Source of the DNA: Candidatus Goldiibacteriota bacterium
Lineage (GTDB): Bacteria; Oederibacteriota; JAAXVQ01
Length of the DNA stretch: 40,596 nucleotides
Assembly (NCBI GenBank): GCA_020052235.1
Contig: JAGVPM010000040.1
Span: 1 to 40,596, forward strand
Direction: 5' to 3'
A model generated the notes under the pieces. The model was given only the letters and a program-made list of their open reading frames with translations. It did not search any database and was not told the DNA's origin. Shown piece by piece: positions 18,846-22,519 of this stretch (the first letter of the stretch is position 1; each line of letters begins with the position of its first letter). A program made the position numbers and the translations under genes.

Positions 18846-19778
18846 TTATTTAAGCACCAAGAAAAAAAACGCGGCCAGCGGGATAAGCAGCAGGGTGCCG
18901 GATACCCAAAGCGCATTGGCCAGTTTGCGGTCGAGTTGGAATAAGTTGGCGGTGATGACCGCATAGATGGCCGCGGGCATGGCGGATTCGATGAAGATGA
19001 TTTTCGCGGGCAGGGAGTTCCAGCGGCCGTAGGCCAGGCCGATGAAGCCAAGCGCCAGCAGCGGGGAGATCAGGTATTTGATCACCTGGATGGCGGCAAT
19101 GGCGGGCCAGGGCTTGAATAAGGCTTTAAGTTCCAGGGTCATGCCAATGGCCACGAACATGATAATTAAATCCGTTTTAATCAGCACGTCGGCCACGAGC
19201 GGGGCGTGCGCCCAGTGGGGAATCTTCGCAACATTCAGAATCAATCCCAGACTCATGGCCAGCAGGGGAACCAGGGATGTCAGGTTTGAAACAATGTTGT
19301 GCAGGTAGTCCGTAAGCGTCAGGCGCACGGGACTGGCATAATGCTTGGCCAGGGAAAATCCGAGCGTGAAGATCACCAGCGGGTAGGGCAAGAGGAAGAG
19401 GTAGCTTAGGCTCAATCCCTGGGTGCCGAAGAGCAAGTAGCAGATAAAGGCGCCGCCGGTGGTGCCGATGTTGGAAAACGCCGAGGCGAGCACGAAACTG
19501 CCCTGGGCGTGCGGATTTTTGGGGAATATTTTTTTACTCCAGGCCCGGCTGACCACGATTAAAATCAGCATCAGCAACGTGGATATGATCGGGATTGGGG
19601 CATAGTGGCGGATTTTCGGCAGATCGAGAATCCAAAAGCTGTAGAGAAAAATCGGGACTTCCAGGCCCAGAATGGCGGCCCGCATAAGCTTGGGGGACCA
19701 CGCCTGCCAGCGGCGCAAGGGCAAACCCAGCGCCAACCCACCATAGAAAATCAAATAAAATTGGAGCAGTGCGTTCAT
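18846..19778 (-). CDS. AEC family (auxin efflux carrier-like) transporter
   Basis: This 310-residue integral membrane protein has about ten helices in the AEC/bile-acid-sodium-symporter-like layout. Diagnostic parts are 'FYLIFYGGLALGLPLRRW', 'FVLASAFSNIGTTGGAFICY' and 'FIESAMPAAIYAVITANLF'. Substrates of bacterial AEC proteins are usually small carboxylates; which one is not visible. I place the start at 19778 because its ATG overlaps the stop of the upstream gene as ATGA; the ORF runs open further but only through the coding sequence of that gene. Confidence 0.88.
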   Translation of the reverse strand: MNALLQFYLIFYGGLALGLPLRRWQAWSPKLMRAAILGLEVPIFLYSFWILDLPKIRHYAPIPIISTLLMLILIVVSRAWSKKIFPKNPHAQGSFVLASAFSNIGTTGGAFICYLLFGTQGLSLSYLFLLPYPLVIFTLGFSLAKHYASPVRLTLTDYLHNIVSNLTSLVPLLAMSLGLILNVAKIPHWAHAPLVADVLIKTDLIIMFVAIGMTLELKALFKPWPAIAAIQVIKYLISPLLALGFIGLAYGRWNSLPAKIIFIESAMPAAIYAVITANLFQLDRKLANALWVSGTLLLIPLAAFFFLVLK

Positions 19779-20608
19779 GCGGGCCGGTTTGGGGCAGTGC
19801 CGGGCACCGGCGGTTTGGGCTTTTGAAAGCATTCACGGCCAAAGCGTGAGAAGGCCAAGTACAGGGCAAAGGCGAGCAGGACGAAAAAATTGCCCAAGGC
19901 TTTCCAATAAGCGGCATAACTGTGGGTGGAAAAGGTATCCGGCAGTTGGACCGCAGCTGCGATGGCCATGACCAAGAGCATGCTCCAGCGCGCGAAATTT
20001 TTTCCCCGCCGCAACAGAAAAAGCAGGCCCCAAAGCAGCAGGGACCAAGCCAGCAAACCCACGGCCCGGCCGGGGTTATACAAAACATCACCCTCGGCTT
20101 GACTTAGGATGTTCATTCCCAGGTAAAACGCGTAGACGGCTTGAAACACGAAATAGGCCCTAAAGAAATAGAATCCTTGGGAACGTTCCTGCTGATTGAT
20201 TTCAAAAAGTTTAAGGGGGCGGAAAAACGCGATGGCCGCAGGATGGCTTAAAACCCAATATCCCCAAAAAGTATAACCAACCAATAATCCATACCAGGGA
20301 AGGTTTTCGTCCAGCACCCGGATGAGGGCCAACAACCCCAAACCGAGGAAGGTGCAGGAAAGAAAAAAGCGCGCCGTGTTTTTATGCTTGGGGATCCACC
20401 AAGCGATGAAAAAGATAAGCGGGAAAAGCAAAAGCAGGGCGGCTTTGGCGGCCGGGGACTGCTGGATGACCGGGGAATAAAAAAAGATCATGGCGAAATA
20501 AACCACCAGCATAATGGCCGATCCGGCCAGGGTGGCATAGCCCACAAGCTCAACCCGGTCGTTGAATAATTCTGAAGTGGAAAGGAAATTTGGCATGGAT
20601 GTATTCAT
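19775..20608 (-). CDS. Integral membrane protein, unknown function
   Basis: This 277-residue protein has about seven or eight hydrophobic helices, starting 'VGYATLAGSAIMLVVYFAMI' and ending 'ALGNFFVLLAFALYLAFS', with a Pro-rich C-terminal tail (PKPPVPGTAP). I do not recognise the family. It overlaps the AEC transporter gene by four bases, so the two are likely translated together. An alternative start is the second Met, four codons in. Confidence 0.7.
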   Translation of the reverse strand: MNTSMPNFLSTSELFNDRVELVGYATLAGSAIMLVVYFAMIFFYSPVIQQSPAAKAALLLLFPLIFFIAWWIPKHKNTARFFLSCTFLGLGLLALIRVLDENLPWYGLLVGYTFWGYWVLSHPAAIAFFRPLKLFEINQQERSQGFYFFRAYFVFQAVYAFYLGMNILSQAEGDVLYNPGRAVGLLAWSLLLWGLLFLLRRGKNFARWSMLLVMAIAAAVQLPDTFSTHSYAAYWKALGNFFVLLAFALYLAFSRFGRECFQKPKPPVPGTAPNRPA

Positions 20609-20643: not shown

Positions 20644-21093
20644 TTACGTGCACGCGGTAAGGGCGTCGCTGAGGTGCAGAAGTTTAAAGATATTTTCCGA
20701 TAGGTCTTCCAAATCAAAGGGCTTGGTCATATATAAATCAGCTTGCATGATATAGAGCCCCTTGATTTTTGAGCGGATTTGCGTTTTGGCCGCTAAGATG
20801 ATGATTTTTATATCCCGCGTGGCGGTGGTGTTTTTCACGCTGTGGCAAACCACCCACCCATCGACTTTAGGCATCATGATATCCAATACAATCAAATCCG
20901 GAGCATGTTTGGTGATTTGATCAAAGGCTTCCAGTCCATTGTAAGCGGTTATAATTTGATAACCTTCGGCTTCCAAGTGGTATTTAATGAGTATGACAAT
21001 ATCCGGATCGTCATCGACGATCAGGATGCGTTTTTTTGCTTTTAAGGCTTCCAGGCCTTTTTCAGAAAAAGTCTCTGCCCCGGTTTCGGCCAT
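20644..21093 (-). CDS. Single-domain response regulator (CheY-like receiver)
   Basis: This 149-residue protein has a receiver domain after a 20-residue N-terminal extension and no output domain. The acidic pocket is D28/D29 in 'ILIVDDDPDI', the phosphorylation site is D71 in 'LIVLDIMMPK', and the switch lysine is K124 in 'YMTKPF'. The conserved switch Thr/Ser (CheY T87) is replaced by Ala101 ('IIILAAKT'), which may weaken or change signalling. No histidine kinase is adjacent; the PAS protein at 28083 lacks a kinase domain. The ATG at 21093 has GAGG upstream; a TATAAT (plus-strand 21140-21145) lies 47 bases before it. Confidence 0.88.
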   Translation of the reverse strand: MAETGAETFSEKGLEALKAKKRILIVDDDPDIVILIKYHLEAEGYQIITAYNGLEAFDQITKHAPDLIVLDIMMPKVDGWVVCHSVKNTTATRDIKIIILAAKTQIRSKIKGLYIMQADLYMTKPFDLEDLSENIFKLLHLSDALTACT

Positions 21094-21204: not shown

Positions 21205-21232
21205 GTAGAGGCGCAAAATTTTGCGTCTCTAC
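21205..21232. repeat. GTAGGG-family palindromic element, copy 3
   Basis: GTAGAGGCGCAAAA and TTTTGCGTCTCTAC, one mismatch, no loop. It supplies the TAG stop (21231-21229) of the lipoprotein reading frame on the minus strand. Confidence 0.85.
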
Positions 21233-21423
21233 ATTATTGCCCTCAATTTAATTGGCCGGGACATTGACATCCGCGCGCCAAGTTTCATCCACGACAATCG
21301 CGCCGGATTGGGGCGAGTCAACGCGCGGATCGTAGGATACCACCGCGATTGACTGCAACCGGTTAAGTAAAGAATTCCCAAAATAACGCTAATGCCCATC
21401 ACCCACATCATTACGAGTTTCAT
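21229..21423 (-). CDS. Small lipoprotein, possibly frameshifted
   Basis: The 64-codon frame starts with a lipoprotein signal peptide ('WVMGISVILGILYLTGC'); LTGC is a good lipobox. A strong SD GGGAGG (minus strand, plus-strand 21432-21437) lies eight bases before the ATG. After Cys the frame turns into an Arg/Met-rich sequence and stops inside a dispersed repeat. One frame over, the same DNA reads 'AVVSYDPRVDSPQSGAIVVD' then 'ETWRADVNVPAN' and stops with TAA at 21250-21248, which looks far more like protein. A single missing base near plus-strand 21352-21358 would explain this. The gene follows a highly structured RNA leader at 21452-21608. Confidence 0.6.
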   Translation of the reverse strand: MKLVMMWVMGISVILGILYLTGCSQSRWYPTIRALTRPNPARLSWMKLGARMSMSRPIKLRAIM

Positions 21424-21425
21424 TG

Positions 21426-21608
21426 GAATCGCCTCCCTGCCCCCATACGGCTTCGAGGCTTATCCTTAATGTCTTGAATGACCGCCGCGGTTTTAACCAT
21501 GGCAGCGGGAATTCAACGAGAGCGCGAGCATTGTCCGAAACCCGGAATGAGCCGCCGTTAACCGGGGGGAGAATCAGCAGCTCATGGCTCGCGCTCTCGA
21601 GCCTCGAA
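21426..21608 (-). ncRNA. Riboswitch-like structured leader of the lipoprotein gene (unassigned class)
   Basis: A three-way junction is visible in plus-strand coordinates. P1: TTCGAGGCT (21452-21460) with AGCCTCGAA (21600-21608). P2: 13 bp, 21517-21529 with 21587-21599, starting next to P1 with no gap; its distal stem ATGAGC/GCTCAT is 21547-21552 with 21580-21585. P3: TTGAAT/ATTCAA (21474-21479 with 21511-21516), abutting P2, continued by a tandem G-A step, CCGC/GCGG and a GGT/ACC hairpin. CCCGG (21541-21545) can pair with CCGGG (21562-21566) inside the distal stem, a pseudoknot. On the minus strand the 3' half of P1 contains GCCTC, which can instead pair with GAGGC of the lipoprotein SD (21431-21435). 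This is a mutually exclusive switch. I match it to no known family. Confidence 0.6.
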
Positions 21609-21828
21609 AATTTAACTGCACCTATCTAAAGAGCAGGATTCATACCAACATGACCGGAGGCAGAGAAAGGCAGAAAGCGGACAAAATATCTACATATTCT
21701 TAATTGGGTATTGCGCACCATAGTTGGGGTATGGGAAAACCATTCCCTAAATTGTTGTTTGGTATCATCATAGTGAGCCTAATTGAAAAGCGGGGAAAAT
21801 AGCCCGGTAAATGGTTGCTTTTTTGGGC
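21609..21828. other. Gap between the leader RNA and the purN promoter, no gene seen
   Basis: No supported ORF. On the minus strand a TAGATA hexamer occurs about 20 bases upstream of the leader RNA and could be a weak -10 for it. A small GGGAA/TTCCC inverted pair lies near 21733-21748. Nothing else stands out. Confidence 0.5.
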
Positions 21829-21857
21829 TTGACAAGCATCGTTTTTACATAGATGAT
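21829..21857 (+). promoter_or_regulatory. Promoter of the purine gene cluster
   Basis: Perfect TTGACA (21829-21834), a 17-base spacer and GATGAT (21852-21857). The purN ATG lies 30 bases after it, so the leader is short and no room remains for a riboswitch in it. Confidence 0.65.
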
Positions 21858-21886: not shown

Positions 21887-22519
21887 ATGGGTTTGAAAAT
21901 TGCAGTGTTGGCTTCAGGTGGCGGCAGTAATTTACAGGCCTTGCTCGATGCCTGGCGGACTCAGCAATTTCGCAATGCCGAGATCGTTGTCGTGGGCAGT
22001 GATAAACCGCAGGCCGGCGCTTTAAAACGCGCCGGCGCGTTGCAGATTCCCACCCTGGCGCTGGAATGGTCCAAGTTTTCCAATGCCATTGCGTTTAATC
22101 AGGAAATGGCTCTGCGCTTGGCCGAATATAATGTGGATGTTGTTTGCCTGGCCGGGTATATGCGGATTTTAACTCCTGAATTTGTCCGGAAATTTCCCCA
22201 GCGTATTTTAAATATTCACCCTGCCTTGTTGCCGGCCTTTGGCGGCAAGGGCATGTACGGGCATCATGTGCATGAAGCGGTTTTAAAATCCGGGGCCAAG
22301 TTTTCAGGGTGCACGGTGCATTATGTTGATGAAGGCACGGACACGGGCCCGATCATACTGCAGGCTACGGTCCCGGTGTTGGATCAGGACACGGCGGATA
22401 CTCTGGCGGAACGGGTGCTGATCGAAGAGCACCGGCTGTACCCCAGAGCCGTGGCTTTGTATTGTGAAAATCGCCTGCGCATTGTAGGAAAACGCGTGCA
22501 TATCGTGGAAAAAGCCTAG
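21887..22519 (+). CDS. purN: Phosphoribosylglycinamide formyltransferase
   Basis: GAR transformylase (210 residues), which transfers formyl from 10-formyl-THF to GAR, the third step of purine synthesis. The N-terminus 'VLASGGGSNLQALLDAW' binds substrate phosphate. The catalytic Asn-His-Asp set is in 'ILNIHPALLPAFGG' and 'DEGTDTGPII', with 'FSGCTVHYVDEGTDTG' typical of PurN. SD GAAAGGGG at 21874-21881. First gene after the promoter at 21829; purH follows 13 bases after its stop. Confidence 0.95.
   Translation: MGLKIAVLASGGGSNLQALLDAWRTQQFRNAEIVVVGSDKPQAGALKRAGALQIPTLALEWSKFSNAIAFNQEMALRLAEYNVDVVCLAGYMRILTPEFVRKFPQRILNIHPALLPAFGGKGMYGHHVHEAVLKSGAKFSGCTVHYVDEGTDTGPIILQATVPVLDQDTADTLAERVLIEEHRLYPRAVALYCENRLRIVGKRVHIVEKA

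Follow-up and report, generated by a model that had tools for sequence, protein, structure and literature searches.

A structured, lineage-restricted leader RNA before a small lipoprotein gene in an uncultured FCPU426-type order, with a predicted sigma-54 promoter

The region immediately upstream of a small lipoprotein gene in the window (the whole stretch of 40,596 nucleotides analysed here) encodes on its minus strand what sequence comparison indicates to be a real, undescribed and lineage-restricted structured leader RNA under predicted sigma-54 control. An unassigned structured RNA had been proposed at this place in a first-pass annotation made from the letters of the window alone, and the proposal is upheld by six covarying homologues and by the lack of a match in Rfam. 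The RNA family is new, and its kind, the cis-regulatory leader, is already known. In our preferred reading, held with moderate confidence, it would be a lineage-specific cis-regulatory RNA serving as 5' leader of a transcript that depends on sigma-54 and encodes a lipoprotein of about 60 aa and probably also a receiver-only response regulator. Uncultured phyla such as FCPU426 have hardly been explored for regulatory RNA, and the locus offers a compact RNA family, absent from Rfam 15, with a defined promoter, a gene context and a covarying core (Table 1).

The RNA is present in six of the eight genomes of the order (uncultured, FCPU426-type), in one copy each; the six belong to five genera in two families, and the 376 further genomes among the 384 searched lack it. 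A covariance model built from the core retrieved exactly the same six genomes, each with a single copy, from 45 genomes of the phylum and 384 relatives, although the scores of these six are not independent evidence because they constitute the training set of the model. In a genome of the same genus (G001, locus L002), the element is found at the same place with 85% identity over 94 nt. RNAs of the same plan lie directly before the lipoprotein gene in four genomes of f2, the sister family of the window's family (G003, L031/L116; G004, L114; G006, L117; G007, L113), with L031, L113, L114 and L117 as the f2 loci. In G002 the lipoprotein gene is present while RNA and promoter are absent, so that the gene can do without the RNA; G005 has neither the lipoprotein gene nor the RNA. 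No Rfam 15 family reached the gathering threshold for the window, which leaves the proposed novelty in place, and a permissive Rfam search with the window, L113, L114 and L117 returned only chance-level matches far below the cut-offs. The best sub-threshold match, to group-II-D1D4-6 on the plus strand (17.3 bits, cut-off 49), shares only a short stem similarity. A mobile element or repeat was also considered and rejected on account of the single copy per genome and the lack of a plasmid or phage match; in viral contigs, the loop pattern of f2 had no exact match.

Table 1. Features of the leader RNA and its surroundings, in window coordinates.
Feature	Position	Strand	Remarks
Receiver-only response regulator gene	20644..21093	-	Downstream of lipoprotein gene; PF00072
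Small lipoprotein gene	21248..21423	-	Lipobox LTGC; frameshifted in the window
Shine-Dalgarno (SD) of lipoprotein gene	21432..21437	-	GGGAGG; GGAGG kept in L002, L113, L114, L117
P1 3' strand	21452..21460	-	GCCUC alternatively able to pair with SD GAGGC
P5 hairpin	21474..21516	-	Genus-specific; different-sequence hairpin at same place in L002
P2 3' strand	21517..21529	-	Basis: arms, fold, covariation
P4 hairpin	21534..21546	-	UCCG GGUUU CGGA; helix of 8 bp in f2, covarying across the six genomes
P3 hairpin	21547..21585	-	Stem 21585-21575/21557-21547; C-rich apical loop AUUCUCCCCCCGGUUAA 21574-21558
P2 5' strand	21587..21599	-	13 bp, RNA core; pairs with 21517-21529; basis: arms, fold, covariation
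P1 5' strand	21600..21608	-	Pairs with 21452-21460; genus-specific, absent in f2 homologues
Sigma-54 -24/-12 promoter	21633..21649	-	GTTGGTATGAATCCTGC (GG-N10-GC); predicted +1 near 21621
Putative upstream activator site	21733..21751	-	TTTAGGGAATGGTTTTCCC; about 102 nt upstream of -24 element
purN	21887..22519	+	Divergent neighbour; PF00551

The nested stems that had been described are partly conserved. The 9-bp arms of P1 (21452-21460/21600-21608) and the 13-bp arms of P2 (21517-21529/21587-21599) are indeed perfect in the window, and when the minus-strand RNA is folded they meet the hairpin P5, with its TTGAAT/ATTCAA stem, in a three-way junction that has no gaps; beyond the genus, only the core is kept, in which P2 carries P3 and P4 (21517-21599). 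Since P2 encloses two hairpins, P3 and P4, there are two junctions rather than one. The 215-nt minus-strand fold has a minimum free energy of -95.9 kcal/mol (z = -4.99, 0 of 200 dinucleotide shuffles), and just one of 376 window tiles folds better, the GC-corrected z being -3.3. Two finer elements of the description did not hold. One is the 5-bp pseudoknot (21541-21545 with 21562-21566), which collides with the P4 stem and whose partner bases f2 does not preserve; the other is the tandem G-A step of P3, for which there is no conservation. Also overlooked were P4 itself, the C-rich loop and its conservation, the frameshifted state of the lipoprotein gene and the predicted sigma-54 promoter.

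The first-pass annotation had let its RNA depend on homologues that keep the P1 and P2 pairing and covary. Covariation was found among the six homologues, with P2 paired and covarying, and P1 is absent in f2. In particular, 14 of the 33 core pairs of the six-sequence alignment are changed on both sides while 88% of cells are paired, which none of 500 shuffles reaches, and pairing falls to 30-49% when the partners are slid by one to three columns. The four f2 sequences taken alone have 7 pairs changed on both sides and are 96% paired (0 of 500 shuffles). With six sequences, R-scape-type significance cannot be claimed for single pairs, and the misalignment of P3 between the two families by MAFFT lowers rather than raises the pair counts of this hairpin. 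In L031, several positions of the P2 5' strand are changed, each to a G-U pair, and the 3' strand is the same as in the window. The minus-strand RNA counts 14 G-U pairs, of which L031 contributes 5, and read from the opposite strand they would be A-C mismatches; as these pairs hold only on the minus strand and the orientation of the promoter agrees, the RNA can be assigned to that strand. The preservation of shape while the sequence changes argues for a real regulatory RNA, and the stems can thus be taken as evolutionarily conserved minus-strand RNA, not quite as first described.

A canonical GG-N10-GC box precedes six of the six leaders at a similar place, reading GTTGGTATGAATCCTGC in the window, TTGGTACGnnnnnTGC in f2 and TTGGCCCGGATCCTGC in L002. 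The prediction of a sigma-54 promoter relies on a GG-N10-GC box with the TGGYAYG..TGC consensus, on its conserved position and on a sigma-54 gene, which is encoded in the same genome, and all of these were found. The pattern TTGGYAYGNNNNYTGC has 9 sites in 3.17 Mb against 3 for the reversed control, and six boxes at the corresponding place are not explained by chance because the pattern is rare. A GGAATG-type motif, the putative activator site, lies 98-110 nt upstream of the box and is clear in five of the six leaders and degenerate in L113; it was located by pattern at -102 to -110 in the window, L031, L114 and L117, and by eye in L002 (TTTTCGGGAATGCTTTTCCC) and L113 (TTTATGGAAAA). At L147:1500-2100, another of the sites in the genome, a sigma-54-type promoter (TTGGTACGCATTTTGC) stands directly before a gene that by its sequence resembles activators of the NtrC family and whose product is a candidate regulator of this system. 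An association of sigma-54 with lipoproteins and the cell exterior has been reported (Francke et al. 2011, PMC3162934), and here too a predicted sigma-54 promoter precedes a lipoprotein gene; that study concerns promoters and activators, whereas the locus in the window adds a conserved leader RNA. Sigma-54 is normally viewed as a purely transcriptional switch; here it would be connected to a leader RNA that precedes the genes of an envelope lipoprotein and a signalling protein.

The stems of the RNA vary freely with compensation, and strong sequence conservation is found only in the apical loop of P3. The loop is invariant, being AUUCUCCCCCCGGUUAA in the window's genus (identical in L002) and CUCCACCCCCC(C)GGCA in f2, with the series CU-CC-(A)C-rich-GG kept in six of six, and the junction linker is unlike between the families, the GRAAA of f2 being absent in the window's genus. 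That a single apical loop is conserved while its scaffold varies suggests the P3 loop as the site at which another molecule makes contact. The loop paired with its own SD no better than shuffles did in four or five of the six leaders (22 of 500 in the window, 52 of 500 in L117, 159-306 of 500 in the others), no consistently placed complement was seen elsewhere in the operon, and genome-wide trans targets of the form GGGGGTGG...ATG were not enriched, with 13-15 in G002 and G005 versus 12-30 in the RNA-bearing genomes. As its own SD, the operon and genome-wide G-rich starts gave no convincing partner, a protein or an RNA outside these sets is left as the partner of the loop. The invariant C-rich loop is a concrete piece for biochemistry and may serve as bait for this partner.

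According to our preferred reading as a cis-regulatory leader, an enhancer-binding protein together with sigma-54 would switch transcription on, and the leader would then fold into a rigid P2-P3-P4 core beside the ribosome-binding site; in f2, some 15-30 nt separate the end of the core from the SD. The core would present its C-rich loop to a trans-acting partner, either a G-rich RNA or an RNA-binding protein, and this contact would set the translation or the stability of the lipoprotein mRNA. In the window's genus, the added P1/P5 arm may keep the P1 3' strand off the SD and possibly work as a secondary translational ON switch. None of the six leaders has a U-run after P2, which makes attenuation of transcription unlikely. 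A bolder version, which we advance only tentatively, proposes a novel class of regulatory RNAs by which sigma-54 transcription would be coupled to a second, post-transcriptional checkpoint on an envelope lipoprotein, in which a three-way-junction scaffold would carry an invariant C-rich loop binding a specific ligand, protein or RNA, and the SD switch would have been added later in one genus.

The alternation between P1 and the SD had been the basis for proposing a translational ON switch. The mutually exclusive pairing is real in the window and L002, where GCCUC of P1 can pair on the minus strand with a GAGGC that overlaps the SD of the lipoprotein gene, and it is absent in L031, L113, L114 and L117. 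The P1-on and SD-sequestered states are about 1 kcal/mol apart in the window, and L002 favours P1 by about 5-6 kcal/mol. These exclusive pairings, so close in energy in the window, the presence of P1 and of the GCCUC/GAGGC complement also in L002, and the location of the core before the SD are all in line with a metabolite- or ion-sensing riboswitch that would exchange P1 for SD pairing. Yet P1 and P5 occur in the window's genus only and are missing in all four f2 homologues, the junction with its family-specific linker is not conserved in the manner of a ligand pocket, conservation is centred on a single apical loop, and one copy per genome before one lipoprotein gene provides no metabolic theme. 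The switch was therefore not sustained as a general mechanism; since P1, P5 and the P1-versus-SD pairing exist only in the window's genus, it may at most be a local add-on, and the evidence neither demonstrates nor favours a ligand riboswitch, which we consider improbable.

A trans-acting, sigma-54-dependent small RNA that, in the manner of small RNAs with a C-rich loop, blocks the G-rich ribosome-binding sites of other mRNAs, with the lipoprotein ORF as its 3' part or host transcript, is a minor possibility that draws on the stable scaffold with its invariant C-rich loop, on the promoter and on the failure to find a cis target in its own SD or operon. It is weakened by the lack of a terminator after P2, by the fusion to the same gene in every case and by complement-plus-ATG sites that are about equally common in relatives without the RNA. 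Likewise improbable is a 5' mRNA stabiliser or ribosome-standby structure with no specific partner; a very stable stem close to the 5' end and the freedom of most stems to vary in sequence would suit it, but it leaves the strictly kept C-rich loop unexplained, and at least 12 unpaired 5' nucleotides come before the stem. A leader-peptide attenuator in f2 is more doubtful still. Its short ORF (MRLFFR..EATRTL) would start at an AUG in P3 and run through P4 and P2, and the ATG is kept in the four f2 loci and is in frame with the lipoprotein in L031; however, CCCCCCCGGC rather than an SD precedes this ATG, the window and L002 have no ATG at the corresponding place, and the changes within f2 follow base pairing. 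Least credible is an element acting at the DNA level (a mobile inverted repeat or a protein site) or mere chance folding. The inverted repeats are long and folding z-scores from a single genome prove little by themselves, but this reading is largely refuted by the single copy per genome, by the lack of matches in plasmids or phages, by the paired changes and by G-U pairs that hold on one strand only.

Regulatory RNAs of the RNAIII/RsaE type have a structured stem with a C-rich loop, through which they can pair with G-rich ribosome-binding sites. The window RNA shares with them the presentation of a C-rich loop on a structured stem and differs in being always in cis with one gene, with no terminator or target found. 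As a conserved stem-junction RNA in a 5' leader beside an SD, it is also similar to orphan riboswitch candidates and structured leaders of the type discussed in PMC7266159 and PMC11109978, the latter of which does not mention it; unlike these, it is tied to one order and one gene context, its conservation is in an apical loop and it has a predicted sigma-54 promoter.

Homologous loci are syntenic, with purN divergent from the series RNA, lipoprotein and response regulator. Neither of the two proteins in this series could be assigned a more specific function. Relative to its homologues, the lipoprotein gene of the window lacks one base at about 21331-21335 and its protein matches in two frames; a real frameshift and an assembly error cannot be told apart. 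Intact homologues of 59-63 aa occur in G001, G002, G004, G006 and G007, and the G001 protein (63 aa, lipobox LTGC), used as a query, retrieved homologues from five more genomes of the order. A profile of the lipoprotein found members in this order only, a weak match in G221 having failed inspection. In G003 (L031:2404-2488, minus strand), the usual start of the lipoprotein is CTG with no SD visible, and the ATG within P3 opens a frame that continues via P4 and P2 into the lipoprotein. On the same strand, after the response regulator, the interval 18846-20608 (-) encodes a membrane transporter with weak similarity to auxin efflux carriers (Mem_trans, slightly below the cut-off) and a 277-aa protein without a family.

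The nearest relative of the purN of the window genome belongs to a candidate division FCPU426 MAG. A TTGACA-type sigma-70 promoter-like stretch lies before purN at 21828-21855 (+), with 95% identity to G001 over 37 nt. A purine link through the adjoining purN was considered and set aside, as the RNA is on the opposite strand with its own promoter. At 21205-21232 there is a near-perfect 14-bp palindrome, GTAGAGGCGCAAAATTTTGCGTCTCTAC, which is probably a dispersed repeat because a similar palindrome, GTAGGGGCGCAATTCATTGCGCCCCTAT, is found in the same genome (L151, about 1872-1898).
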